Shown one piece after another: positions 50,038 through 64,000 of a stretch of 64,000 nt of DNA (position 1 is its first letter; every line of letters starts with the position of its first letter). A model generated the notes under the pieces. It did not search any database. It was not told where the DNA came from and saw only the letters and a program-made list of their open reading frames with translations. The position numbers were made by a program, and so were the translations under genes. The stretch is from positions 1 through 64,000 of the forward strand of contig JAAZCE010000047.1 in the NCBI GenBank assembly GCA_012513435.1, written 5' to 3'. Source of the DNA: Clostridiales bacterium (GTDB lineage Bacteria > Bacillota > Clostridia > Peptostreptococcales > Anaerovoracaceae).

Positions 50038-50937
50038 CTACATGACCTCAATATGATCTATTCCCTTGGAAGACCTGCCAAACAATATTTCTGCTTTTAT
50101 CTGTAATACCAACGGCATGCAAAACAGTATACCATAAACAGCATAAAACACGTATGAAACAGGTGTGACCCTGTTCATAACAATCTGAGGGTCGTAGTAA
50201 ATATTTGTCTGGTTAAAGGCCACCGCCACGGCAATGAAAGTAAGACACAGGAATATTGCAACGACAAAGCACCTGTCCCTGTTATCAAACCTGTAAATAG
50301 AAAAAGCTGTCCTCCCCCTTAAAGAATACCCCCGGCTTTTCATAGACTGTGAGCTTTCTATAAAGCTCTCCGCCGTCCAGGTTATGAGTATGGAGAACAC
50401 GCAGACCATATTTGTAAGACGCCTTAAAATGGTCCCCTGACCGCATCCTCTTCCTATTCCTCTTCGAGACACGTTGACCCTGACTGCAGTCTGTTTTATT
50501 CTGGGAATACTACGCAGCATTATAGATAAAAACAAGGATAATTTAGGTGATACTCTGCCAAACAGATACACCACCTTATCCGATGAAAAAACAGCGAATA
50601 CACATGACATTATCATAATAACAGTAGCCGCGGTGACGCCGATTACAAGTCCGAACACAACGGCTTCCAATGTTATCTCGTTGCCAATAAAATTTTGCCT
50701 GATATAGGTACTGCCAAAATGGTTATAGTATGAATACCATGCTCCATAGGCTAAAATCAACGGTATGAGACATAGGTTAAAAACCATAGCCCTGATGCCG
50801 TTGAGCTTCACCGAATAGGCAAAGGCGGATACATATGCTATGGCTAAATAGACAGGATGGTGAAAGGAAACCGTGAAGGCGGTAACCGCTGTGAAGTATA
50901 TTAAATTGATAGCTGGATGATAGCTGTCAAATTTCAC
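50038..50937 (-). CDS. ECF transporter T component (second copy)
   Basis: A 299-residue EcfT protein with about five membrane segments and cytoplasmic coupling helices (RIKQTAVRVNVSRRGIG, SSQSMKSRGYSLRGRTAFS). It starts with GTG, with AGGAGG 6 bases upstream inside the end of the S-component gene. It is the last gene of the ECF operon, which already has an EcfT gene at its head. Two T proteins could make an asymmetric complex with the fused ATPase, or serve different S proteins. Confidence 0.85.
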   Translation of the reverse strand: MKFDSYHPAINLIYFTAVTAFTVSFHHPVYLAIAYVSAFAYSVKLNGIRAMVFNLCLIPLILAYGAWYSYYNHFGSTYIRQNFIGNEITLEAVVFGLVIGVTAATVIMIMSCVFAVFSSDKVVYLFGRVSPKLSLFLSIMLRSIPRIKQTAVRVNVSRRGIGRGCGQGTILRRLTNMVCVFSILITWTAESFIESSQSMKSRGYSLRGRTAFSIYRFDNRDRCFVVAIFLCLTFIAVAVAFNQTNIYYDPQIVMNRVTPVSYVFYAVYGILFCMPLVLQIKAEILFGRSSKGIDHIEVM

Positions 50938-50938
50938 T

Positions 50939-51652
50939 CTAATCCTCCTCCATCATTCCGTACTTAACCTTTATTCTGTTGAGTTTCTCCGTCATAGGCT
51001 TGCAAAGCAGTAACAAGGTGAGCATAGTGCACACAGCTAGTACTGTGTTGACAGGCACTCCCGCCAGATAAACAGCAGCTAAAGACACGGTATTGACCAT
51101 ACTCGCCATGGTGAATACGGTACAGGTATCCAGCAAGGGTCCGACTATGAGCATGATTATCAGTCCGCCAAAAATCGTAACAGGAATCCTCTTTTCAGGC
51201 TTTAAAACGCCTGCCTTAGTAAGTAGTCCGGCAATAAATCCCGCCAGTCCGTAAGAAAACATCTGCCACGGAGTCCAGGGTCCCTGACCAAAGATAAAAT
51301 TGCTTACAAAGGCGCTGATTGACCCTGTAAGGAATCCTGCAGCCGGTCCAAATGCCATACCCGCAATAATGATAATTCCTATGATAGGCTTGAAATGAGG
51401 CACCATAATAAAGGCTACACGCGAAGCCACGGCAATGGCACACATGACCGCAATGCACACAAGCTCTCTTGCCTGAGGCTTGCGGTTTTCAAAGCCCACG
51501 AAAAACGGCACCATGGAAAGTATAATGATTATCACTCCCGTAATATAGTACTGCCTGTCCCCCATATACCAGCCTATTAAAATAGCGGCAGGAACAAAGA
51601 TAATCACAGCGATAACGCTTATTAAGGTTCTGCTTATAGATTTTTTCTGCAT
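50939..51652 (-). CDS. ECF transporter S component (substrate-binding)
   Basis: A 237-residue membrane protein with about seven hydrophobic segments, including FIFGQGPWTPWQMFSYGLAG, a stretch common to S components that bind corrinoids or related cofactors. The S component sets the specificity. Because a cobalamin riboswitch lies upstream of the operon, cobalamin or a precursor is the likely substrate, as for CbrT of Lactobacillus. The gene overlaps the ATPase gene by 19 bases. Confidence 0.8.
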   Translation of the reverse strand: MQKKSISRTLISVIAVIIFVPAAILIGWYMGDRQYYITGVIIIILSMVPFFVGFENRKPQARELVCIAVMCAIAVASRVAFIMVPHFKPIIGIIIIAGMAFGPAAGFLTGSISAFVSNFIFGQGPWTPWQMFSYGLAGFIAGLLTKAGVLKPEKRIPVTIFGGLIIMLIVGPLLDTCTVFTMASMVNTVSLAAVYLAGVPVNTVLAVCTMLTLLLLCKPMTEKLNRIKVKYGMMEED

Positions 51653-53301
51653 AGCTCAACCACATCCTCATTGGTAATGGCATTTTCAAACACATGCCTG
51701 CTCATTCTGTTTGCCGCCGTAGTATAAAAGCTGTTCTTGGAGAAAAACTTACTTGGCGTATTGGTAGTAATAATGCTTCCGTCAAAAAACATGCTTACGC
51801 TGTCAGCGTACTTGGCGCAAAATTCGATATCGTGAGAAACCATAATGATGGTCACCTTCTGAGCCTTTAGCTTATCAAGTATTGCCGCGAACTTCAATTT
51901 AAAGAAATTATCTATCCCCTTGGTCGGCTCATCGAGAAGGAGTATCTTAGGCTTGGTAAGCAGCACCTTGGCAAGGGCCGCTCTCTGCTGTTCTCCGCCA
52001 GAAAGGTCGTAAGGATGGCTTTCCAGCAAATGGGTTATTTCACAGGTTCCAGCGATTTCCTCCATCAAGGCCTCGTTTTTTTTATCTTCACCGTAAAGCA
52101 TTTCCTTCAGATCCTCCCTGACGGTTTTCTTTACGAAAAGGCTCTGAGGGTCCTGAGGAAGCATGGCAAGGTTCCCTTTGAAAAGCTCTTGCGAGCTGTA
52201 CTTTTCTATACGCTTTCCATCTATAAGAACTTCACCCCTGTATGGCCTGCAAATATTGCATATAGCCTTGAGTGTGGTGGATTTTCCCGTTCCGTTACCG
52301 CCTACTATAGCGAAAAGCCTATCCTTAGGCACGTAAAAGGAAACGCCCTTCAGCACGTCGGGGCTTTGCTTTTCATATCTGAACCAGGCCTCCTTAACTA
52401 TAACGGCAGGCGTTCCTATATACTCTGCATCTTCTTCTCTGTCCAAAGAAATATTCTCCGGCGTCCTATCCTTGAAAAGTCTCGTCAGCCAATTTCGCCC
52501 TTCCCTTACGGTCAACGGACATTCCGACTCGTCGTTAACACCGTAGTAAATCTGCACCGGGGACGGCATTGCCGCAAACATTTCGTTATTATCCCCCTTG
52601 AGGAATGCTCCTACCTTGCGTGGGGTATCATCGGCTATTATCCTTCCGTCGTCAAGAACCACCACTCTGTCGGAGGCATGAAAAATATCTTCAAGTCTGT
52701 GTTCCGTAATTATTATAGTTGTTCCAAGCTCCAGGTTTATCTTCCTCACCGTATTGAGAAAATCAGCCGCTGCTATAGGGTCCAACTGGGACGTAGGTTC
52801 ATCAAGAATGAGAACCGTAGGCTGCATTGCCATTATGGATGCCAGGTTGAGAAGCTGCTTTTGCCCCCCTGACAGCTGGGAAACATTCTTGTGAAACCAC
52901 CCTTGAATGCCAAAATAGCTGGCCATTTCCGCTACTCTAAGTCTTATGGTCTTCTGGTCCAGGCCCAGACTTTCAAGGCCAAATGCCAGCTCATGCCATA
53001 CCTTGTCGGTCACTATCTGATTGGCGGGATTCTGCATGACATAGCCTATCTTAGAAGACTGCATTCGAAAATCGGCGTCTGCCAAAGGCTTCCCTTCAAA
53101 TATAATCTCACCCTCCAGTTTCCCGTGAGGTGCAAGAACGCTTTTGAGATGCCTCAAAAGTGTGGTTTTGCCGCTTCCGCTTTTACCGCAAACCGCTACA
53201 TATTCCCCCTGATGTATGTGCAGGTTTATGTGGTCAAGTGCAGGCTTATCCTTTTTCGTGGGATAGTAGAAGGTTAAATTCTTGATCTCAAAATGCGCCA
53301 T
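51634..53301 (-). CDS. ECF transporter ATPase, EcfA1-EcfA2 fusion
   Basis: A 555-residue protein with two ATPase domains in one chain. Domain 1 (about 1-235) has GKSGSGKTT and LSGGQKQLL; domain 2 (about 285-500) has VGGNGTGKST and LSGGEQQRAALA. In most species these are two proteins. The ATG at 53301 has GGGAGG 7 bases upstream; the longer frame to 53448 runs into the EcfT gene. It overlaps EcfT by 28 bases and the S component by 19. Confidence 0.9.
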   Translation of the reverse strand: MAHFEIKNLTFYYPTKKDKPALDHINLHIHQGEYVAVCGKSGSGKTTLLRHLKSVLAPHGKLEGEIIFEGKPLADADFRMQSSKIGYVMQNPANQIVTDKVWHELAFGLESLGLDQKTIRLRVAEMASYFGIQGWFHKNVSQLSGGQKQLLNLASIMAMQPTVLILDEPTSQLDPIAAADFLNTVRKINLELGTTIIITEHRLEDIFHASDRVVVLDDGRIIADDTPRKVGAFLKGDNNEMFAAMPSPVQIYYGVNDESECPLTVREGRNWLTRLFKDRTPENISLDREEDAEYIGTPAVIVKEAWFRYEKQSPDVLKGVSFYVPKDRLFAIVGGNGTGKSTTLKAICNICRPYRGEVLIDGKRIEKYSSQELFKGNLAMLPQDPQSLFVKKTVREDLKEMLYGEDKKNEALMEEIAGTCEITHLLESHPYDLSGGEQQRAALAKVLLTKPKILLLDEPTKGIDNFFKLKFAAILDKLKAQKVTIIMVSHDIEFCAKYADSVSMFFDGSIITTNTPSKFFSKNSFYTTAANRMSRHVFENAITNEDVVELCRKNL

Positions 53302-54170
53302 GTAATATCCTCCCTTATATTCAGTACCGTAGGTACAGCCAAAAGTATTGTATATGAAACCATTCCAAATAAAGTGATTCCGTCGCTTATACTTCTTATA
53401 TAAAGACGGGGGGTGTAGGTGGTTTCCATTCCTCCCCATGCTCCGCATGCAAAAACAACTGCTATCAAAGCCATGATCAACATGAGCAAAGCTCTGTCCC
53501 TTCCGTCGAATCTGTATACGCTGAAATTCGTGCGTCTGCCACAGCCGTATCCTCTGCTTCTCATGCTGTCGGCAATCATTATGCCCCCTTCAAAGGCCCA
53601 TGTAGTCAGAGCCGATACAGCTGTCAGAGAATTTTCCGCCTTCTCCCTTTTACACCCTGAATCTCCCGACTTGCCTATACATCTTCTGGCGGACAATATC
53701 TGCATCAGCTTCCTTTGATAGTTGGGAACAAACCTTAAGACCATAGTCAAAACCATGGAAATAGCCGGAATAAACCTGCCAAAGAGATACATGAATTTAT
53801 CACTGGTCATTACCACGTTGTAGCAGGCAAACCAGGTGATTATTGCTACGAACATTGCCGCTATGGCCATGCCGTAGTAAAGGGCTTCCATAGTATAAGG
53901 TCTGCCTCCGAAATAGGTGAATAGCACGGTGTTTCCCCGTGTATTAAACAGAGGATTCAGCGCCGAAAGTACGACAAATACCGGTATCATTCCCAGTATG
54001 AGCTTGACAGCCTTTCTCCTTTTGATTGTAGCATAATATGCGAAGGCAAAGAAACACGTACACGCCAAAAAAGCAGGATGTATAAAGAACATCCCGAAAA
54101 TCACAGCTCCCGCGAAGAACATAAAGTTTATCGCAGGGTTATAGGTCGAAAATGTGTCACTGCTCTGCAT
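53274..54170 (-). CDS. ECF transporter T component (first copy)
   Basis: A 298-residue EcfT protein with coupling motifs YQRKLMQILSARRCIG and ADSMRSRGYGCGRRTNFSVY. The ATG at 54170 begins after a GAGGG site; an upstream frame to 54266 runs through the riboswitch and is rejected. It is the first gene of the operon and is 25-30% alike by eye to the second EcfT (same SRGY and RTxFS motifs). Confidence 0.85.
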   Translation of the reverse strand: MQSSDTFSTYNPAINFMFFAGAVIFGMFFIHPAFLACTCFFAFAYYATIKRRKAVKLILGMIPVFVVLSALNPLFNTRGNTVLFTYFGGRPYTMEALYYGMAIAAMFVAIITWFACYNVVMTSDKFMYLFGRFIPAISMVLTMVLRFVPNYQRKLMQILSARRCIGKSGDSGCKREKAENSLTAVSALTTWAFEGGIMIADSMRSRGYGCGRRTNFSVYRFDGRDRALLMLIMALIAVVFACGAWGGMETTYTPRLYIRSISDGITLFGMVSYTILLAVPTVLNIREDITWRILRSRI

Positions 54171-54189
54171 GTGAGTTTCCCTCTTTTCC

Positions 54190-54370
54190 CCAAAAAATAA
54201 ACAAACACCGATATTCGGTGCCGGCTTATGAAATACCGCAACCCTTGATGCGGCTTCAAGTCTCACCGAAAATGAAAGCTCTGGCTTAATCGCTCATTGG
54301 CGATACACAGTAGCAAGGATGCTGCCGCGGACTCCCACCGCATTCCGACATAGTCGTTGGATTTATTCAT
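54190..54370 (-). promoter_or_regulatory. cobalamin riboswitch
   Basis: On the minus strand the leader contains GGTGGGAGTCC, GGCAGC, TACTGT and, later, AAGCCAGAGC, in the order and spacing of the cobalamin riboswitch with its B12 box. It ends in a hairpin CACCGA-TAT-TCGGTG (54220-54206) and a T-rich run that look like a Rho-independent terminator. It would switch the ECF operon off when cobalamin is plentiful. Confidence 0.8.
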
Positions 54371-54380
54371 TTATGTCACT

Positions 54381-54409
54381 ATTATAGCAGTTGCGCCATT
54401 ATTTATCAA
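54381..54409 (-). promoter_or_regulatory. promoter of the ECF operon
   Basis: On the minus strand -35 TTGATA (54409-54404) and a perfect -10 TATAAT (54386-54381) are 17 bases apart, just before the cobalamin riboswitch. Confidence 0.75.
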
Positions 54410-54425
54410 TTCAATAGGTGATTAA

Positions 54426-54453
54426 AAAACGAAGGCATAAAACCCTTCGTTTT
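54426..54453 (-). terminator. terminator-like hairpin
   Basis: AAAACGAAGG (54426-54435) pairs with CCTTCGTTTT (54444-54453). On the minus strand a T run follows. It isolates the ECF promoter from transcription that comes from the repeat region. Confidence 0.7.
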
Positions 54454-54469
54454 AGAATGTAGGCTAACG

Positions 54470-54650
54470 CCCCCTCCATGAGTTTTGCTTGTTTTTATTT
54501 CAAAAAAGCTCGGTTCATTTCCAATATTTCCCTGAAACCGTCCTAATTATGACCCCCTCCATGAGTTTTGTTGTGTAACTCAAAAAATAACTCTGTGTTC
54601 ACCCTATCACCCACGAAGTTTTAAACGGAACTCTTGAACAAAACTCCGTG
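54470..54650. repeat. degenerate intergenic repeat cluster
   Basis: An exact 18-base direct repeat, CCCCCTCCATGAGTTTTG, occurs at 54470-54487 and 54553-54570. A related inverted version, AACAAAACTCCGTG, lies at 54637-54650, and on the minus strand CACGGAGTTTT faces AAAACTTCGTG as a hairpin. The area from about 54455 to 54870 appears to be made of decayed repeat copies. Confidence 0.5.
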
Positions 54651-54850
54651 TTTGACTTCCAATATGTCGATAATATTTGGTTTTCTGCAAAAATCCGGTG
54701 CTTTTCAAACAAAAAATCTCTAAAACTCAGTGTCATAAAGCTCAGCGTCAAAGCAACGCTTTCAGACGATGCTAATATTGTCATCTGTGGCTGGATTAGC
54801 CGTGCTACTCTTTTGGAACCTGTCTCTATTTCTTTTTTCTTAATCTCCAC
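54599..54850 (-). other. doubtful 83-codon open frame
   Basis: A GTG-started frame without a ribosome site. It overlaps the intergenic repeats (its end encodes part of the repeat). No family is recognised. It is probably not a gene, or is a remnant of one. Confidence 0.25.
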
Positions 54851-54902
54851 AACTATTTTACACTAACAGTTATTAATTGTGGGTAAAAAAAAGAAAAAAA
54901 TA

Positions 54903-54934
54903 TGTCAGCTCCGTTTTAAAAAGCGGAGCTGACA
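54903..54934 (-). terminator. terminator of the carboxylesterase gene
   Basis: TGTCAGCTCCG (54903-54913) pairs perfectly with CGGAGCTGACA (54924-54934). On the minus strand a long T-rich run follows. Confidence 0.9.
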
Positions 54935-54955
54935 TTCTCCAGGCATTAAGCCTAT

Positions 54956-56617
54956 TTACTTAAGATAGTGCTTTGCAAATGATTGCAGTAGAGCTCTCTG
55001 ATCTCCGAGAGGGTCTTTCTCCATATTCAAGCCGTCCTTCGTTATCATCATAGTGTTCCTATCTGTAGTATCATACTTCGACCATTCCACATCACCTACG
55101 CTTGGGTTCCCTGTTTTTGCAAAGTTAACCCATGCTTCACAGATTTGATCTGCCATATCCACATCAACGGTACCGCTGAATATGGTTTCATCCTGATTAT
55201 GAAATACATATGCAACCTCTGAGGCATGACATGCACCAATGAAATCAAAATTATCCGATGAAATATCAAAATAGTACATATATGTATTTCCACCTGCATC
55301 GGCATGGCATGACGCCGTTTCTATAGCAGGAATTCTAAAGCCCGTTTCATTGCCTAACTCAGTGTTCTGCCATACCTTGGCAAGACTCTTTACCTGCTTT
55401 AGGCTGTAAAATTCATCGAGCTTTGCCTTTTCTTCTTCTGTAGCCACTTCATACGCCTCATCCTTCTTGGCCTTGGCAACATATTCCTTGTACATGGCCT
55501 TATTTTCCTTAACGCCATCTTCATCCATCTCGGACATTTCTACATCGCCCATTTCATTAATCCAATATCTCCATTCATCTGCATTGGAGCCAACCATAAG
55601 GTCAACATCCTTGCCTACGCCATCGAGAAGGGCCTGATATGGATCTTCCTCTACTACACCTTCTTGTCCTCTGAAAGGCATATTATAAAGGTCGTTTAAG
55701 GTGGAACCCTCGTCATCAATTACTTCCTCAGTATAAAGCTTAATCATCTTCTTTTCCGGAATTGCCATCAAATCATCCATGTTCTTTGCTCCGGTTAATT
55801 CCATCAGAGCTTCTGTAGTTCCCCAGTTATCAAAGTCCTCCTGATTATAGGTCAAATTCAACGAGCCACTTTCAGCAATCGCTCTCTTGAATAACCCCTG
55901 GGCATCGGAACTTGCGGTAAGCAATGATGTAAAGGCTCCGCCGGCCGAGTTACCGAATATAGTCACATTATCCGGGTCTCCGCCAAAGCTTTGGATATTT
56001 TCCTGCACCCAGGTCAGTCCCTGCATAAGATCCAGCATGCTGAGATTTTTGCTGTCAGGAAAAGCTTCTCCCCCTTCAACCTTGCTCAAATCTATTTCGC
56101 CCAGCATGCCGAGTCTGTAGTTTAAGCTTACAACGATAACATCATTATGCTCTTCTACAATTGTAGCACCGTTGTATAATGAATCTGCTGTACCTCCCCA
56201 GGCAAAGCCACCTCCATGAATCCAAACCATTACAGGTTTGTCTTTAGATTTCAAATCCTTGGTCCACACGTTCAGAGTTAAGCAGTCCTCACCAACGCCT
56301 GCCTCGTTTTCACCCGCAGGTTCGGAATGCCACGAATACTGTACTGACGTTTTACCAAATTCTTTTGCTTCAATGGTTTTGTCGCTTTCATCCGGAGCCT
56401 GTGGTGCCTTCCATCTCAAATCATCTGTCGGAGATTTGGCATAAGGAATTCCCTTAAATGCAAGCACATCGGTATCCTCATCCACCTGACCCACAAAATT
56501 ACCATTGTAACAGCCTGCCGTTCGGTCAGCTTCCGGGACTTCTTCACTTCCACAACCGCACAGAGCTAGTGTCATACAGCATATGACTGACACTGTCAAT
56601 AATAACTTCTTCTTCAT
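54956..56617 (-). CDS. type-B carboxylesterase lipoprotein
   Basis: A 553-residue alpha/beta hydrolase of the carboxylesterase/cholinesterase family, exported and lipid-anchored (lipobox ALCGC). The oxyanion motif HGGG is at 134-137, the nucleophile S224 in FGNSAGGAF, the acid E348 in GSNADEWRYW and H464 in GACHASEVAYVF. All catalytic residues are present, so it should be active outside the cell. The substrate is unknown. AAAGGAGG precedes the ATG. Downstream of the LuxR gene on the same strand. Confidence 0.88.
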   Translation of the reverse strand: MKKKLLLTVSVICCMTLALCGCGSEEVPEADRTAGCYNGNFVGQVDEDTDVLAFKGIPYAKSPTDDLRWKAPQAPDESDKTIEAKEFGKTSVQYSWHSEPAGENEAGVGEDCLTLNVWTKDLKSKDKPVMVWIHGGGFAWGGTADSLYNGATIVEEHNDVIVVSLNYRLGMLGEIDLSKVEGGEAFPDSKNLSMLDLMQGLTWVQENIQSFGGDPDNVTIFGNSAGGAFTSLLTASSDAQGLFKRAIAESGSLNLTYNQEDFDNWGTTEALMELTGAKNMDDLMAIPEKKMIKLYTEEVIDDEGSTLNDLYNMPFRGQEGVVEEDPYQALLDGVGKDVDLMVGSNADEWRYWINEMGDVEMSEMDEDGVKENKAMYKEYVAKAKKDEAYEVATEEEKAKLDEFYSLKQVKSLAKVWQNTELGNETGFRIPAIETASCHADAGGNTYMYYFDISSDNFDFIGACHASEVAYVFHNQDETIFSGTVDVDMADQICEAWVNFAKTGNPSVGDVEWSKYDTTDRNTMMITKDGLNMEKDPLGDQRALLQSFAKHYLK

Positions 56618-56714
56618 AATGACCTCCTTTGGTTTTTTGCAATTTTCTGAAATCTTATAGCAGAACTACAAAAAAAGATAGTACCCAATCGGGTACTATT
56701 TGTCCATGAATGGA

Positions 56715-57716
56715 TTATTGTCGTTTATTTCCCTGGGCATTCACAAGATGAGCCAACTCTATTCTGCTTTTCACATCCAGCTTTTCATACAGATTATGGG
56801 TATGCTTTTTAACAGTGTTAATGGAAATGTAAAGCATTGAACCTATGTCCGGATTAGTATAACCCTCATACACCAACTCCATGACCTCTCTTTCCCTGAC
56901 CGTGAGCTTGTGGTTTTCTGCAATTATGTCTAGAAGGCAAGCTATTTCTTCCTTGCCGTCACCGGCAGGTTCAGTTTCTCTCTTTGCAAAAAACAGAGGG
57001 CTGAAATCCTCCTTAAAAACAAATACGAATGTAGCCAGGCTGCACAGAAACATGATAGGACCTGTAAAGTCAGGAAACTCCAGCGCCCAGGCAGATACAC
57101 CAAACCGACCGAAGAAAAGACCAACATCTACTATACATTGAACCACAGACCACACTATAAGGAGTGCTGAGCATAATTCTATGTATTTTTTTCTCAACCT
57201 GTTGATGCTTTCCCTTACGCCATAAATAGCGTACAGAGCTATGAGGCATATGGTGGCGACATTAAACACCACCTCAGTCGCCGACCAGATAATGCAAACT
57301 CTATCATCGGCTATTTCATAGTAATCTCCCATGAAGCCCATGGCAATTACTAGTGACGCTCCAAGTCTGCATATAAACAGTATCCAGGCGAAAATAAAAA
57401 TCCCTTTGTATTTATCATCATCAAGCATCCGATAAATCAGAAGCATCCAGGCCAGGAAAAGGGTACAGCAAAGAGTGTAATCTACTATTCTGTATGGCAT
57501 AACAAGCTCAAACTCACTCTGCACAACTTCTCTGTAATAGAAGATAAAATACAAAATTCCCGTCAAGGTTATTGTCACAGCAAAATTTCTCGTAGACAAA
57601 TATAGCTTATTTCTCCTATATGTCCTGTTTACAAGAACCACAGTAATCAAAGCAATACATAAGAGAGATAAGAAAATGGCGACTATATAGAATATAAATA
57701 TAGTATCCCTATACAT
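56715..57716 (-). CDS. membrane-bound LuxR-type regulator
   Basis: A 333-residue protein with seven or eight membrane segments in the N-terminal 235 residues and a C-terminal LuxR helix-turn-helix (LTVREREVMELVYEGYTNPD, then SINTVKKHTHNLYEKLDVKS). Such regulators sense a signal in the membrane and act on nearby genes. The ATG at 57716 has GGAGG 8 bases upstream. It sits between the carboxylesterase gene and the DUF4430 surface-protein operon. Confidence 0.85.
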   Translation of the reverse strand: MYRDTIFIFYIVAIFLSLLCIALITVVLVNRTYRRNKLYLSTRNFAVTITLTGILYFIFYYREVVQSEFELVMPYRIVDYTLCCTLFLAWMLLIYRMLDDDKYKGIFIFAWILFICRLGASLVIAMGFMGDYYEIADDRVCIIWSATEVVFNVATICLIALYAIYGVRESINRLRKKYIELCSALLIVWSVVQCIVDVGLFFGRFGVSAWALEFPDFTGPIMFLCSLATFVFVFKEDFSPLFFAKRETEPAGDGKEEIACLLDIIAENHKLTVREREVMELVYEGYTNPDIGSMLYISINTVKKHTHNLYEKLDVKSRIELAHLVNAQGNKRQ

Positions 57717-57805
57717 ATTAATGCCTCCATCAGTATTATATATTCTCCGTCCGCTTATAGTCAATAAAACAACATGGTTTCAAGAGGTTTTCCACAAAAA
57801 AAGAA

Positions 57806-57853
57806 CATTTTTCCACATTATGCGATTTACTCGCAGGAGTTTGTGGAAAAATG
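57806..57853 (-). terminator. terminator of the surface-protein operon
   Basis: CATTTTTCCACA (57806-57817) pairs perfectly with TGTGGAAAAATG (57842-57853), with a smaller hairpin (TGCGA with TCGCA) inside. On the minus strand a T run follows. It ends the transcript of the large surface protein. Confidence 0.85.
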
Positions 57854-57869
57854 CTCTTTGGTTATTCTA

Positions 57870-60800
57870 TTATTTAGTGGTTTGGTCTTTCCTCTTCATT
57901 ACAACAATAATGCATATTGCTATAAGCGCTGCGGCTCCAAGAGCTATCCAGAACCAGTATGAAGTACTCTTTTCCGTTTCGCTCCCCATGGCATCCTCCC
58001 ATGTACCATTAAAACCTATAATGGCATACGGTGAGAAGCTCTGTGCGTCGAAGTCATAGCTATGGTCATTCTCAATGGCCTTAATGAATTCATACCCGCC
58101 ATCCTCGTCTATGTGGAGAACAGCTATGCTATCGTGGCCATCCTTGTCGGCAGCAGGCACCTTAACCCTAATACTTTTCTTAAGCTCTGCCTTCTTGCCT
58201 GTAAGCAAATCAATTATGTGTATATCATATCCTGAAAGAATAACGGCATCCTCACCAAAGGTCTCCTTAATCTTGCTCAACTCTTGGTCGGTGAATTCTC
58301 TTTCAGTGACTTCCACCTTTTGATACCACTTAGCATTGCTGATTGTTATTCCACTCTTCTTATCCTTATGCATTACCTGGCCGATTTCATTGAGAATCTT
58401 CTTGAAATCCTTGTAGTTGTCTACCAGCAGCCTCTCATCGTCGCTAAGGAGCTGGTACGCCTTGTAGGCTTCGATTACGCTGTTTAACTGTTCATCAGTG
58501 ATTTCTTCCATGTTATCAGGAAGCTTCTTGGATTCATCCTCAGGAGCGAGAATCTGGTCTATCTTGCTCTTGACCTCCTTGACACTGCTGCTCAAGACGG
58601 CATCCACGCTCTTGGTTATGGATTTAGTCGCTGACTTGACAGCTGTAATTTTATCCATCTGCTTAACAATCTCCCCGGATATGAGACCACCCTTTACCTT
58701 CGTTACGTCCGAACAATCGAACAGATTGGTTTTGCCGTTATAGGAACGAAGAAGTGAAACTAAAGCTCTCGCACACTGACTCTTATCAGAAGCATATCCT
58801 AAGGATAACTCTGGATTATCTATGATATAGTTAATCATAGTGTTGCCGTTCTTTACCAAGTCTTCGGAAAAAAAATCCACTCCTAAAAGGCCTATAAGCA
58901 TCTGTGCTTGGGCATCAGTCCATGCATTGGTGCTGTTAGAAATAAATGCGGACTTATAAAGTCCGTACCCATTTTGACTTCTGGACATCCACGGTATTAT
59001 CTCATCCTCAACGTACTTCTTAATCTTATATGCGTCTGCATCAGCAGCTGTTGCGGACGGATTATACATTAGGAAAATAGGCTGAGCATACATGGTTGCC
59101 ATATCATCCGCACTGTAGCTGTCTGCCTTGGAGGTTGATGTCAGGCTACTTACATAACTGGAGATAATAGATTCATAATCTCCGTATCTTCCACTATACA
59201 GGGCGTACGCCTTATAATGTACTGCAAAATATTTGCCGCTATCATCGCTCTTATTCAATTCGTCGATAAAGTTTATATTATTACAGTCAGTGGCATCATA
59301 TCCCATAGCGGTAAGTGCCAGAACAAATTTAGCAGTTTCCGTAGTCTCCGGCTCCTTATTATTTTGGGTCTGACAAGCAACGTACTCATTCCAAACGGTC
59401 ATTAATGAGGTATACATCCTTTCCTTTGATGCACCCTGTGGATAATATCCTGTTCTGGCACAGGTAAATGCAAAGAGTGGATCCTTGAATGCTTTTATTC
59501 CATCTTCCTTCACTATAGCATCAAGGATAGTTTTAATTGCCTTATCGGCTTTTTGAACCTGCGCCTGTTTTTGTATATCGGTCAAAGTATTGCTTATTGT
59601 CTTATCATCGTGGTAGGTTCCCTTGGAATCTGCAAATTCATAGGAAATTATTTTGAAATCATACTTGTCGTTGTTTTTGTACTCAAGGCTGTAATAATCC
59701 GACAGCTTTTTGCTGATGAAATCCTTGCTCACTCCATCATTGGTCGATGTGACAGCAAAATCCTTTTTCCATTTATCCTGATTCAAAGTAGCGATACATC
59801 CACAATCATTCAATATCTTGTCAAAGTTCTTATTAATATCCGGTTCACTTCCTGTATATTCCAGTTTATATGTAAGCGGAAATACACAGTCGTTTTGAGA
59901 AACAGTTCTGTCGTAAGTATAATCTCCGACCTTTGCTATGAGCTTTAATTCCACAATAGGGCTTATTTCGGTGAAATTGTATCTCAGGATTGGATTGTTC
60001 GAGCCTTCCTGAAGCTCCCATGTATTGACAAAGTCAAACCCCTTAAAGGTTTCCGCTACCTTTATTTGGTCAGAATTGCAGGCAGTCGCTCCGTCTACAG
60101 TTTTGTAACTGCTCGTGTCCGACTTCAAATACCAACAATTTGTCAAACCACCAACTGAAATAGGATATATTTTACCTTCGGTAATTGAAAGCTGCCCAGC
60201 AAAAACACAGTTCTCTATGGTTCCGCTATTTGAATTGGCAAATCCTGATACTTTAGCATTAACATCCGATTTAGTGGAATTAATTTTAACTGAAGATAAG
60301 CAATTTTTTATTGTTCCTTCATTACCAGATACATATCCGGCGTACCCAGTGGCATTGCCTGTAATAGAGCCATAAACCTGACATTTCTCTATCACTCCGC
60401 TGTTATAATAAGCTATCGCTGTGCCAGGATTAGAATTTGTTTTATTTATCCCGGACATTATAAGGCTGTTCACCGAACCTTTTTCCCCTATTGTGAGAAA
60501 CAGTGCTTCCGTATTTGTCCAGCCTGAAACGGTATGGCCTCTTCCGTTAAATGTGCCATTAAATATTTTAGCTTCGGCATCCGTCGGAACAATTCCGGCC
60601 GTTCCCACGTCATCCGTATCAGTCAATGCTATATCATTTGTCAAACAAACGGTTTTCCCTTCATATGTAACGCCGTTTCCAATAGAATCTCTGAAAATTT
60701 TAAGGTCCTTTGCCGAAGATATGAGATATGCCCCGTTGCTCTTGCTCCATAATGACTTGTACTTTTCTTCCGTTACAGTAACCTTGCATATAGGAGCTAT

Positions 60801-62663
60801 AATCGGGCAATCAACCTCAGACTCTGTCGCTGTTGACCAATCCATTACCCTGTCTTTAACGGTGCCCGATGCTGACACATAGTATGTGCCTGTTTTATCA
60901 AAGCTAAGTTCAACCTTTCCCACATCATCAGTAGTTTTCTTGTCAATAGGGGTGAATCCCTCATCACCAATTATGCCAACCTCTACTCCTGCAACTACTT
61001 TAGGCTCACCTCCAGCCATGCCTTGAAAGCCCGTCAGTGTAAGGGTAAACTTGGAATTCACTTCTACTTCCTTTTCCTGTTCGCCAAATGACGTGTACCA
61101 GTCAGCGTAATATGCATCATCCTTATTTATGGAAGCGGTTATCTTGTCTCCGTCTTTTACCTTATCTAAGGCAACACCGGCTGTTAATCCCGTACCGTTT
61201 ATAAAGAAAAGTGTATTGATGGTATCAACGTCCCAGAGCTTGCTTACCCAACCGCCTGGTGCACTATAACCACCAGGGCAATAGTCTTCATGCAGTTTTT
61301 GCATTACAGCATCTACAGTAGCCTGACCATCTGCAGTAGCAACCGTTACTGGAATGTTAATCATCTTGGTTGCCCTGTCATCCTTGCCTACCGCAATATT
61401 CCCTTTGTTTGAAACTGTCACGTATGTAGTTATTTCTTCTTTCACTGTAACCTTGCAAACAGGAGCTATAATCGGGCAATCTGCCTCTACCTTGATGCTA
61501 CCATCGTATGGCGGCTGAGACCAGTCAGCTACCATATCTTTAACAGCGCCCGATGCTGACACATAGTATGTGCCTGCCTTTTCAAAACTCAAGGTTACGA
61601 GTCCATCCGTTCCCGTTGTTTTTGTTCCAATCTGAGTAAATTCTCCACCCTCAATCGTGCCTATCTTTACTCCCTTAGCTGCTCTTGGCTCACCTCCGGC
61701 CATTCCTTGAAAGCCCGTCAGCGTAAGGGTGAACTCCTCATCTGACTTGACGGTTTTTTCAGATATATCAAATGATGTGTACCAATCGGCATAATATGAA
61801 TCGTCCTTATTTATAGATGCGGTTAATTTATCGCCATTTTTTACCTTGTCGACAGTGACTCCGGTTGACAAACCCTTACCGTTAACAAAAAACGTCACAT
61901 TCCCTGTATTGATTCCCCACAGCATATTTACCCATCCACCCGGTGCACTATATCCACCGGAGCAATACTCTACGTGGGCTTTCGCCAGTACAGCGTCAAC
62001 AGTTGCCGCACCGTCAGCATCTGCTTCCACCTCTACGGGAACATTTGACATAATCGTTTCGCCGCTTGATGCAATGACTCCTTTATTTGAAATGGTCACA
62101 TATGTGGTTATGGTGGGCTTGTTACCACTCTGCGGAGCTGCCCCCAGTAGGGGAACATCTCCATCATCACTGTCTTCTTCCGTTCCAGCGACATCCGTCT
62201 TCTCTGCTACCGTACCGCTGTACTTAACCTTGATTACGCTTCCGTTTGTAATATTACCCTTGGCAACTGAATAATCTGCAAACTGTTGGTTAATATCTGT
62301 ATCATTGACAAAACCCTTCCACAGACAGTCGGTTCCGGCTTCGCCGTTAGCGATGCCGTTTATCTCCGAAACTGTGTTAGAGCTAATATCGTTCATGGTT
62401 TTTTGGTCTGACTCCAGCGCCGCTTTTAACACGGTCAAAAACGTTGAACCCGCATCTATCTGGATTTCTTTCTCGTCTATGAGCTTCCCTGTCCAGTCAG
62501 CTCCGTCTTCCGCAGCCCAGATATCGTTTTCTACGATAACCTTTACGGTTCCCGTGTTTTCTGTTTCCCCTTCGGCAAATGCCAGCTGAGGTACCGTGCC
62601 AAAAAGCATGAAAAGTACAACGACCAATGAAAGCACCTTTCCAAATAATTTTTTCTTCTCCAC
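57870..62663 (-). CDS. very large surface protein: DUF4430, tandem repeats, toroid-like domain
   Basis: About 1,597 residues. A signal peptide ends near AFAEG. In numbering from the TTG at 62672, 38-152 is DUF4430-like (transcobalamin beta-type). Then come two near-identical repeats (186-413 and 414-637), a GLUG-type beta-helix stretch (about 640-870), an alpha/alpha region (about 1060-1340) that resembles the prenyltransferase/transcobalamin toroid (AKFVLALTAMGYDAT, YAQPIFLMYN), a stalk and a final membrane anchor with basic tail (VVMKRKDQTTK). The GTG at 62663 lies 10 bases after AGGAGG; the TTG at 62672 is too close. The fold pair matches transcobalamin and intrinsic factor, so corrinoid binding is inferred. 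No sorting motif. Confidence 0.8.
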   Translation of the reverse strand: MEKKKLFGKVLSLVVVLFMLFGTVPQLAFAEGETENTGTVKVIVENDIWAAEDGADWTGKLIDEKEIQIDAGSTFLTVLKAALESDQKTMNDISSNTVSEINGIANGEAGTDCLWKGFVNDTDINQQFADYSVAKGNITNGSVIKVKYSGTVAEKTDVAGTEEDSDDGDVPLLGAAPQSGNKPTITTYVTISNKGVIASSGETIMSNVPVEVEADADGAATVDAVLAKAHVEYCSGGYSAPGGWVNMLWGINTGNVTFFVNGKGLSTGVTVDKVKNGDKLTASINKDDSYYADWYTSFDISEKTVKSDEEFTLTLTGFQGMAGGEPRAAKGVKIGTIEGGEFTQIGTKTTGTDGLVTLSFEKAGTYYVSASGAVKDMVADWSQPPYDGSIKVEADCPIIAPVCKVTVKEEITTYVTVSNKGNIAVGKDDRATKMINIPVTVATADGQATVDAVMQKLHEDYCPGGYSAPGGWVSKLWDVDTINTLFFINGTGLTAGVALDKVKDGDKITASINKDDAYYADWYTSFGEQEKEVEVNSKFTLTLTGFQGMAGGEPKVVAGVEVGIIGDEGFTPIDKKTTDDVGKVELSFDKTGTYYVSASGTVKDRVMDWSTATESEVDCPIIAPICKVTVTEEKYKSLWSKSNGAYLISSAKDLKIFRDSIGNGVTYEGKTVCLTNDIALTDTDDVGTAGIVPTDAEAKIFNGTFNGRGHTVSGWTNTEALFLTIGEKGSVNSLIMSGINKTNSNPGTAIAYYNSGVIEKCQVYGSITGNATGYAGYVSGNEGTIKNCLSSVKINSTKSDVNAKVSGFANSNSGTIENCVFAGQLSITEGKIYPISVGGLTNCWYLKSDTSSYKTVDGATACNSDQIKVAETFKGFDFVNTWELQEGSNNPILRYNFTEISPIVELKLIAKVGDYTYDRTVSQNDCVFPLTYKLEYTGSEPDINKNFDKILNDCGCIATLNQDKWKKDFAVTSTNDGVSKDFISKKLSDYYSLEYKNNDKYDFKIISYEFADSKGTYHDDKTISNTLTDIQKQAQVQKADKAIKTILDAIVKEDGIKAFKDPLFAFTCARTGYYPQGASKERMYTSLMTVWNEYVACQTQNNKEPETTETAKFVLALTAMGYDATDCNNINFIDELNKSDDSGKYFAVHYKAYALYSGRYGDYESIISSYVSSLTSTSKADSYSADDMATMYAQPIFLMYNPSATAADADAYKIKKYVEDEIIPWMSRSQNGYGLYKSAFISNSTNAWTDAQAQMLIGLLGVDFFSEDLVKNGNTMINYIIDNPELSLGYASDKSQCARALVSLLRSYNGKTNLFDCSDVTKVKGGLISGEIVKQMDKITAVKSATKSITKSVDAVLSSSVKEVKSKIDQILAPEDESKKLPDNMEEITDEQLNSVIEAYKAYQLLSDDERLLVDNYKDFKKILNEIGQVMHKDKKSGITISNAKWYQKVEVTEREFTDQELSKIKETFGEDAVILSGYDIHIIDLLTGKKAELKKSIRVKVPAADKDGHDSIAVLHIDEDGGYEFIKAIENDHSYDFDAQSFSPYAIIGFNGTWEDAMGSETEKSTSYWFWIALGAAALIAICIIVVMKRKDQTTK
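60762..62117 (-). repeat. tandem coding repeat (two units)
   Basis: Two head-to-tail copies, 61434-62117 and 60762-61433, encode about 225 residues each. Both contain GGYSAPGGW, SINKDD, YYADWYTSF, TLTGFQGMAGGEP and ADCP or VDCP-IIAP. The high similarity suggests recent duplication or exchange between copies. Confidence 0.85.
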
Positions 62664-62687
62664 GTTTTTCAATCCTCCTATAATCTA

Positions 62688-63896
62688 TTACATTCCGCCT
62701 CCTACATCAGCCCCCAGACCGTTGCAGGTATAACACCAAACCATGGTGTCACCGTTTTTCATCTTATATGAACTGACCCCGTAATTGGGGAACCATCCGT
62801 TGACCTTGTACATCCATCCTGATTGCTCTCCACAGTCAAACTCGTAGAGATGATTCATCCCTTCTATGTAATAGCTTCCGTACATAGGTGTGTATGAATA
62901 TTCCAGCTGTATCCCTGCCGCATTGCAGGCACGTTTTAGAACATCAAAGGCAGTTTCACCATCTCTGAACTGAACTGTAGATGTGGCAAGGATTATTCCG
63001 TTGCTTGGCACATACGCCTCTTTCCCGGCTGTCAGTTTCCCCATATTGTTCAGGATTGTATCGCAGCGTATTTGGATTGTACAGGTCTTCACTCCGCCGC
63101 TTGATGCAGACCCTGAGGATTTACTGCCTTCAAGCCCTGATTCTCCTGCCGCAATTACCTCTTGTTCGTGCTTCTTCTGTTCCTTAACGGCTTTCTTTAC
63201 TTCCTTTTCTCTATCAGAAACAACTTTATCCAGCTGTTCTGCCGTGAAGCAAAGCTCTCTATTGCCACCTGCAAGCTTAGCCTGTTCGATGTTAAAATCA
63301 TTTAAAGCTTCCGCCTTTAGCTTATTTACAGCTACCTCATCTCCTGCCACCGATATGCCCTGACCTGCTTTAGCTGTTTTCTCTGTATCACCCTTAGCTA
63401 AGGCCACTTCCCCCTCATAGACATTGACTCCCATAGAGCCTGTCTGTGAGTTGACTGAGAACACTGTGCCCCTTGCAGTAAGGCTGTAGTCCCCTACGGT
63501 TATGTCCTTGAAGCTCTCTCCATCATTTATAACCACGAAGATTTCACCTTTGCTCAGGCTTATGGAATACATATCACCCTTCAGGTTCCCATGCTGGCCT
63601 TCTGTATCGCCTGCCATGATATAATCATTATCTCCCGCTTCTATTCTAGCTGTAGCATCGGATTTCGTCTCGACTATATCACTTGCCTTTAGTGCTGTCT
63701 CATCCTCCAGCCTATATGCAACGCCTTCTCTTTCAATATTGGCAATGCCCTTAACCTCGGTAGCCTGTGCATAGCTGCCAGTGCCGTCAAACCATCCTTT
63801 GATGTTTCCCACAGCCATAACACCGCAGAGCACTATGACAGCAATCAGTGCCGCCATTGCAATGTTCATTATTCTCTTCTTCTTCTGCGTTTCCAA
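62688..63896 (-). CDS. FecR-domain membrane protein with C-terminal DUF4430
   Basis: A 402-residue membrane protein with one N-terminal span (about 9-30), a FecR domain (about 40-190, with GQGISVAGDEVAVNKL), a charged coiled-coil-like stretch (about 215-250), a Ser/Gly linker and a DUF4430 domain (about 270-402). The end shows the usual GWMYKVNGWFPNYGVSSYKM and KNGDTMVWCYTCNGLG. The TTG start has AGGAGG 6 bases upstream. It lies 24 bases before the large surface-protein gene, so both are in one operon. DUF4430 shares its fold with the beta domain of transcobalamin. Confidence 0.85.
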   Translation of the reverse strand: METQKKKRIMNIAMAALIAVIVLCGVMAVGNIKGWFDGTGSYAQATEVKGIANIEREGVAYRLEDETALKASDIVETKSDATARIEAGDNDYIMAGDTEGQHGNLKGDMYSISLSKGEIFVVINDGESFKDITVGDYSLTARGTVFSVNSQTGSMGVNVYEGEVALAKGDTEKTAKAGQGISVAGDEVAVNKLKAEALNDFNIEQAKLAGGNRELCFTAEQLDKVVSDREKEVKKAVKEQKKHEQEVIAAGESGLEGSKSSGSASSGGVKTCTIQIRCDTILNNMGKLTAGKEAYVPSNGIILATSTVQFRDGETAFDVLKRACNAAGIQLEYSYTPMYGSYYIEGMNHLYEFDCGEQSGWMYKVNGWFPNYGVSSYKMKNGDTMVWCYTCNGLGADVGGGM

Positions 63897-63911: not shown

Positions 63912-64000
63912 TTATTCCGGCCAATAGACACAGTAACAAGGATAGTATTCTCCCAAATATACCCATACCGTATCGCCCATATCTAATTTTTCTTTTTTAT
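63912..64000 (-). CDS. 3' end of an upstream DUF4430-like gene, cut by window edge
   Basis: The open frame on the minus strand enters the window at 64000 and ends with TAA at 63914-63912. The visible 29 codons end in LDMGDTVWVYLGEYYPCYCV-YWPE; the stretch before that resembles the K/M-x-D-GDTVVW end of DUF4430 domains. It is 15 bases upstream of the FecR-domain gene, so probably the same operon. Confidence 0.55.
   Translation of the reverse strand, partial: KKEKLDMGDTVWVYLGEYYPCYCVYWPE

Follow-up and report, generated by a model that had tools for sequence, protein, structure and literature searches.

Two neighbouring gene units lie on the reverse strand near the end of a 64,000-nucleotide stretch of a gut-type Clostridiales genome of the family Anaerovoracaceae (positions 1 to 64,000 of contig JAAZCE010000047.1, assembly GCA_012513435.1), to which we refer as the window. 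One is an operon for surface proteins with DUF4430 domains, the largest of which also has an alpha/alpha toroid-like region; the other, a separate unit ~3.5 kb away, codes for an importer of the energy-coupling factor (ECF) type. An earlier note on this DNA had proposed that the surface proteins bind corrinoids for the importer, and we weigh this proposal below.

The surface operon begins just beyond the end of the window with a cobalamin riboswitch (contig 64399-64608, reverse strand) that matches RF00174 at 45.7 bits (gathering score 31.5). The same leader has a promoter-like site (contig 64635-64606, reverse strand; a consensus match only), and the riboswitch is followed by an 11-pair hairpin with a T run at -19.3 kcal/mol (2 of 200 shuffles folded as well), which was read by eye and not listed by the pattern scan for terminators. 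The first open reading frame (ORF) after the riboswitch encodes 101 amino acids (contig 63913-64218, reverse strand, with its 3' end, 63913-64000, in the window); it matches no Pfam family at E<=1, and a homologue lies between the riboswitch and the FecR-DUF4430 gene of the relative G009 (L083). The next gene (62688-63896, reverse strand) specifies a 402-residue protein that combines a FecR-like domain (PF04773, 32.4 bits, cut-off 24) with a C-terminal DUF4430 domain (PF14478, 66.1 bits), the latter retaining the conserved core of a set of 76 sequences; a hydrophobic stretch near its N-terminus, read by eye, is likely a membrane anchor. Only 15 bases past the stop codon of this gene begins that of a predicted surface protein of 1600 residues (57870-62672, reverse strand), with a DUF4430 domain at residues 75-139 (PF14478, 26.1 bits, cut-off 23.8) and, as read by eye, a signal-like N-terminus and a hydrophobic C-terminal stretch. 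Its last 60 residues contain no LPxTG motif, and on this check LPxTG anchoring of the toroid proteins was rejected.

The earlier note had counted three surface genes with DUF4430 domains in the window; Pfam finds only two, and the third was therefore dropped. What had been counted may be a pair of weak repeats in the 1600-residue protein (residues 187-302 and 413-530), which resemble DUF4430 with an hhalign probability of 35%: against A7, the mostly phylum-wide DUF4430 profile discussed below, they score 13.2 and 8.6 bits (best shuffles 5.8 and 7.7, respectively), and against two other profiles they lie near or below their shuffles. The stretch immediately preceding the toroid (residues 900-1066) was likewise rejected as a DUF4430 domain, at 1.3 bits and below its shuffles. 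Residues ~645-890 of the same protein (window 60000-60740) are repetitive, beta-helix or GLUG-like by eye, and have no Pfam match. A whole-genome search recovered one further DUF4430 gene, which encodes a 141-residue lipoprotein-like protein on contig C96 (4255-4461; locus L004, 4060-4485); this contig has no RF00174 match.

The importer genes follow one another in the order T, AA', S, T, all on the reverse strand, and the same order is present in the relatives L063 and L064. The first EcfT gene (53274-54266) shows a weak match to PF02361 CbiQ (E 3.5e-4, under the cut-off), while the second (50038-50937) matches neither this nor any other Pfam T family; the two are homologous to each other (E 7e-46). 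As the listed GTG start of the first EcfT overlaps the riboswitch of this unit, translation probably begins at an internal ATG (54170). The fused EcfA-EcfA' ATPase (51634-53448) comprises two ABC_tran stretches and matches TIGR04520 at 356 bits (cut-off 315), with its conserved part beginning near residue 50. The S component (50939-51652), when searched alone against the PDB, finds 6fnp_A as its best match (E 1.6e-7), and a profile of 18 such S components retrieves the same chain at E 2.4e-24 as its sole match at E<=0.01. Entry 6FNP is the ECF-CbrT cobalamin transporter of Lactobacillus delbrueckii (PMC5997447), whose chain A, labelled 'Membrane protein', we took to be CbrT because of its length of 182 residues. 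Judged by these sequence relationships, the window importer is of the CbrT type, with cobalamin as its predicted substrate.

Upstream of these genes is an AdoCbl-type cobalamin riboswitch (54226-54374, reverse strand), which matches RF01482 over its full length at 35.3 bits (E 0.002), and the placement of the ECF importer behind a cobalamin riboswitch in the earlier note is thereby upheld. A promoter-like site (TTGATA-17-TATAAT, 54381-54409, reverse strand), which is an 11/12 consensus match only, lies just upstream of it, and just after the aptamer there is a terminator-like hairpin with a T-rich tail (54204-54222, reverse strand), also a consensus match, whose fold of -11.0 kcal/mol was reached by none of 200 shuffles. 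Given a riboswitch-like leader before each operon, both units look to be under B12 control, with the switching itself predicted from the leaders.

It might be asked if B12 acts here only as a regulator, with the locus handling some other ligand: cobalt, a tetrapyrrole of another kind, or a B12 precursor such as cobinamide. Cobalt importers, too, can be under B12 riboswitches, as is cbiMNQO of C. difficile (PMC11477304); cobinamide is also carried by CbrT (PMC5997447), and precursors were allowed for by Burroughs et al. 2007 (PMC1796856). However, the S component belongs to the CbrT type, with the CbrT entry as its only PDB match at the above threshold, and cobinamide would still be a corrinoid. 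Hence, we regard a different ligand as very improbable.

The toroid-like region that the earlier note had seen in the largest surface protein was recovered in our searches, in a divergent form. It spans residues 1068-1327 (coding stretch 58689-59489, reverse strand; E 1.2e-56 with a profile that includes the window row). Using residues 1036-1340 as the starting point of an iterated search of the neighbourhoods, we gathered a family of 86 domain matches in 74 proteins. Against a profile of 48 others, with its own row excluded, the window toroid scores E 6.6e-30 (best of 500 shuffles E 8.5), and against 43 others, with the nearest type also excluded, E 3e-14 (best of 500 shuffles E 6.2). In the set of 49, 38 members match SQHop_cyclase_C and 29 match Prenyltrans (E<=0.1), both of which are alpha/alpha toroid families; a second set of 29 toroids from across the phylum gives 26 and 25 such matches, and the two sets compared as profiles match at E 1.6e-80 in an alignment headed by the window toroid. 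The window toroid alone matches neither of these families and has no convincing Pfam match. Toroids somewhat closer to it are found beside canonical ones in L139 (35% identical) and Blautia wexlerae (L153; 26%), and it may thus represent a specialised type. At another locus, L078 (G040:C17, 11035-19899), an ORF running off the stretch encodes six toroid domains and one DUF4430 domain; its contig has no riboswitch match.

The relationship of DUF4430 to the beta domain of transcobalamin, given in the earlier note as one of fold, is also apparent at the level of sequence profiles. Profile A7, built from 52 mostly phylum-wide DUF4430 sequences, matches the beta domain of human transcobalamin-2 (5NO0) at E 9e-4, full-length transcobalamin-2 at E 0.018 and transcobalamin-1 at E 0.04. 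Its best PDB match is 3U7Z (E 1.9e-4), a stand-alone 101-residue chain named RUMGNA_00854 and described as a 'putative metal binding protein', which, going by that name, presumably comes from Ruminococcus gnavus. As for the transcobalamin alpha domain, the Cobalamin_bind family (PF01122) has four matches at E<=0.1 in 41 related genomes, none of which reaches the cut-off: the top two (E 2.3e-5 and 0.005, per genome) sit in toroid proteins of DUF4430 clusters, and the other two lie outside such proteins and contain stops. The same family is matched at E 0.04-0.09 by 1 of the 49 and 1 of the 29 toroids of the two sets, and it has no match at E<=0.1 in the genome of the window.

The genomic context of DUF4430 was then taken from three samples, the first being the 41 related genomes. 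DUF4430 is present in 23 of these, with 60 matches, and RF00174 in 37. A riboswitch lies within 3 kb of 24 of the 60 matches, within 10 kb of 33 and within 20 kb of 40, and all of these last 40 are on the strand of their nearest riboswitch. When the matches are grouped into the 32 DUF4430 loci of the 23 genomes, 19 have a riboswitch within 10 kb, where ~1.1 would be expected from the riboswitch numbers and rounded genome sizes, and 14 have a homologue of the S component within 20 kb. These counts draw on all 60 DUF4430 matches, all 130 riboswitch matches and the best 21 of 29 S-component matches, the eight left out being two second pieces of counted genes and six weak matches (E 2e-6 to 8e-4). 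Many of the assemblies are fragmented, and absent neighbours are therefore partly contig ends. At the level of individual loci, relative G009 shows the order riboswitch, homologue of the 101-residue ORF, FecR-DUF4430 protein, and a 593-residue protein like the N-terminal part of the 1600-residue one, while G022 has FecR-DUF4430, a big protein, one further gene, a riboswitch and T-AA'-S-T. The locus L063 of G022 (C4, 16408-18661) contains three tandem cobalamin riboswitches, two of which each precede a 138-residue DUF4430 ORF and the third the FecR-DUF4430 gene; the DUF4430 domains of the two 138-residue ORFs are identical, and the tandem looks like a recent joint duplication of switch and gene.

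The second sample consists of named loci, namely the best 80 of at least 574 confirmed stretches (of at least 597) from a search with the DUF4430 alignment; as the best were kept, it leans towards the FecR-DUF4430 type of the window. A contig search of the same kind with the 1600-residue protein as the query had found no relative. EcfT is found in 68 of the 80, S in 57, T, AA' and S together in 56, toroids in 45, riboswitches in 38, and the A component in 69, a count that possibly includes other ABC ATPases. The strand of the DUF4430 gene is shared by 46 of 51 riboswitches, and at least one of T, S and riboswitch is present in 75 of the 80, there being none in L135, L148, L154, L164 and L171. 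Named isolates with ECF genes include Blautia wexlerae (L153), Ruminococcus bromii (L140, L146, L155) and Eubacterium callanderi (L142); no riboswitch was found in the stretches of these three species with a nucleotide profile, nor with Rfam, run on L140 and L153 only, and hence the link there rests on the ECF genes. Outside Clostridia, Enterococcus pingfangensis (L138, 3047-13870) shows the complete series, in the order riboswitch, a protein with three toroids, a DUF4430 protein, T, AA' and S. Locus L101, titled as a Bacteroides sp. metagenome-assembled genome, has a 75% identical DUF4430 domain of the FecR type with S and T genes nearby, and is probably a mislabelled bin.

The third sample is an even one across the phylum, in which 37 of 119 genomes have DUF4430. 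The earlier note had set co-occurrence with B12 genes across genomes beforehand as a check, and it is widespread here: 38 DUF4430 regions have a riboswitch in 31 cases, EcfT in 29, a CbrT-like S component in 30 and a toroid in 31, mostly co-directional, with riboswitch, toroid+DUF4430 protein, DUF4430 protein, T, AA', S as a common order. These regions come from 36 DUF4430 genomes, the window's own being excluded and second clusters of G138, G142 and G181 left out; in one region (L181) the DUF4430 profile missed the gene. The riboswitch nucleotide profile, which was built without the importer riboswitch of the window, has no match in reversed sequence and finds 33 of 33 known sites, most of them from its training set. 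Rfam, run on 14 of the 38 regions, finds a cobalamin riboswitch in 11 and none in 3, in agreement with that profile in all 14. Among the 30 S matches there are two S-like genes that lack the other importer components: in L201 (5481-6400) and L210 (9535-10430) a short DUF4430 ORF is directly followed by an isolated S-like ORF of 172-177 residues, with neither riboswitch nor T/AA' in the region, and these perhaps belong to a shared-module importer or serve another vitamin.

The genome of the window (estimated completeness 100%, contamination 7.4%, 109 contigs) encodes the corrinoid-dependent enzymes ornithine 4,5-aminomutase and lysine 5,6-aminomutase (beta), both over the cut-offs, together with a MetH-like protein (a 620-residue piece) and a corrinoid protein of the methylamine/glycine-betaine type that are under the cut-offs of the named models. 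As far as its predicted enzymes indicate, this is a genome that uses corrinoids. CbiD of the anaerobic B12 pathway has no match in it.

The computation thus yields riboswitch-like leaders, an S-component family, domain families and a conserved gene order. Surface proteins distantly related to transcobalamin, under B12 switches and beside a B12-type importer, are likely to be B12 catchers for that importer, and capture of corrinoids by the surface proteins is well supported by this context. We consider it likely that the locus as a whole is a corrinoid (vitamin B12) acquisition system, in which surface capture, with predicted corrinoid binding, feeds a CbrT-type importer. At low intracellular B12 the two cobalamin riboswitches would let through the two neighbouring operons, one giving the membrane-held FecR-DUF4430 protein and the 1600-residue DUF4430/toroid surface protein, and the other the CbrT-type ECF importer. 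DUF4430 and toroid would most likely hold the corrinoid outside the cell, possibly clamping a single shared ligand between them as in transcobalamin, and the surface proteins would then pass it to the S component.

Several points weigh against this interpretation. The importer riboswitch scores below the Rfam gathering score of 50 and is absent from a default Rfam scan. A search of the window for the 3' box typical of the other riboswitches gave no match even when 2 mismatches were allowed, which makes this riboswitch either another subtype or a weaker case. In the PDB table of profile A7, an unrelated translation factor stands at the third row (E 0.006); this is probably a chance match, and E values near 0.01 there are consequently not to be over-read. 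The DUF4430 profiles A1 and A4 and the toroid profile A3 retrieve no PDB transcobalamin at the thresholds used, transcobalamin is not among the best 60 of the 80 PDB matches of toroid profile A8, and the top PDB matches of the toroid profiles are squalene-hopene cyclases. Apart from the weak PF01122 matches, the toroid link as drawn from these profiles is to the superfamily and not to transcobalamin's own alpha domain. Nor are DUF4430 and CbiD significantly opposed in the 41 genomes (with DUF4430, 11 have CbiD and 12 do not; without it, 13 and 5; Fisher p 0.20); a tight link with the loss of B12 synthesis was rejected on this ground, and the system would hence not be only for non-producers. 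Furthermore, the window toroid is all that the toroid profile finds in this genome, and it keeps just 19 of 55 columns conserved in canonical toroids. Finally, the genes between the two operons, a carboxylesterase (54956-56617, reverse strand) and a LuxR-type regulator with a hydrophobic, membrane-like N-terminal part (56715-57764, reverse strand), have no homologue in 32 other mapped regions.

The last two points could also mean that the capture proteins of the window are decaying or have changed in use, such that the importer works alone and a divergent toroid, with no other copy in the genome, no longer binds corrinoids; the two unrelated-looking genes that separate the operons would fit with this. 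Set against it, all the genes are open, the FecR-DUF4430 domain has kept its conserved core, and the related toroids beside canonical ones in L139 and L153 allow for a specialised type instead of a degraded one. Decay or change of use thus appears quite improbable to us.

The loss of so many conserved positions might also be accommodated if the surface proteins belonged to the B12 regulon without binding free corrinoids, and instead served as adhesins or scaffolds that dock on the wall or on B12-carrier proteins of host or microbial origin, leaving the S component alone to bind the vitamin. The big proteins of relatives (two examined) do carry Ig-like, cadherin-like, PKD or SLH domains, and the FecR-DUF4430 protein has weak matches, far under the cut-offs, to the surface-adhesin models Lsa33 and Lsa19. 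But DUF4430 is the family to which the B12-contacting beta domain of transcobalamin belongs, and the toroid protein recurs in 31 of 38 phylum-wide regions, which amounts to the same two-domain kit as in transcobalamin. An adhesin or scaffold role is accordingly unlikely in our view, and we retain direct capture of corrinoids as the preferred reading.

The general idea has been known since a prediction of 2007. Burroughs et al. 2007 placed the transcobalamin C domain in one superfamily with Gram-positive surface proteins, described toroid fusions, paralogous surface pairs and operons with CbiO/CbiQ-like genes, and predicted the scavenging of B12 or its precursors and a transfer to animals (PMC1796856). 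We equate their domain with DUF4430, since both correspond to the transcobalamin C domain. The window resembles this kind (the transcobalamin-like SLBB clade) in its DUF4430-type domain in predicted secreted proteins of a Gram-positive, the fused toroid, the often paralogous partner and the CbiO/CbiQ-like genes. These genes are seen within the operon in relatives and across the phylum, whereas in the window the surface operon and the importer are two units, each behind a riboswitch of its own, and FecR is joined to one of the DUF4430 domains. The window is thus a well-supported member of the predicted kind. Riboswitch, FecR, CbrT and S component do not occur in the main text of the 2007 paper (PMC1796856), and we have not found the evidence from riboswitch and S component stated before for this kind. 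A 2020 review assigns ECF and BtuFCD to Gram-positives and surface capture to Bacteroides (PMC6977713). Among the open-access matches listed there was no experimental test of such bacterial B12-capture proteins, which is not proof of absence.

Comparison with characterised systems brings out further differences. ECF-CbrT of L. delbrueckii likewise has a CbrT-family S component, EcfT and two EcfA domains, but its ECF module is shared among eight predicted S components, and the accessible part of the report mentions no surface partner (PMC5997447); the window in contrast has a T-AA'-S-T cassette behind a riboswitch, with surface proteins. Animal transcobalamin and intrinsic factor share with the window the beta-domain family (via 5NO0) and the toroid superfamily; in them, however, an N-terminal toroid and a C-terminal beta domain form one chain (PMC1796856), while the window divides these parts between two proteins, the 1600-residue one having DUF4430 ahead of the toroid. 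The earlier note had also offered the surface proteins as a counterpart of BtuG of Bacteroides. This may hold for the role, surface capture of B12 for an importer, and fails for the family: BtuG is a surface beta-propeller working with BtuB (PMC6977713, PMC6143338), and the window's two surface proteins match no propeller family in Pfam.

A broader version of the proposal, which we put forward tentatively and hold to be somewhat less probable than its negation, is that many members of the phylum possess a split transcobalamin, in which DUF4430-half and toroid-half surface proteins would enclose a corrinoid and hand it on to an S component of the CbrT type. It would amount to an ECF importer with extracellular receptors of its own and to a living relative of the kit behind animal transcobalamin and intrinsic factor, with divergent toroids perhaps setting the corrinoid preference. 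In the ECF importers described so far, to our knowledge, ligand binding is left to the S component alone. Gut bacteria compete for corrinoids, which are in short supply there, and surface capture by Bacteroides has been worked out (PMC6977713). For the Gram-positive side, the present results make the 2007 prediction concrete as to which proteins, which importer and which switch may be involved, and they bear on the proposal of Burroughs et al. that animals acquired their B12 carriers from Gram-positive bacteria (PMC1796856).

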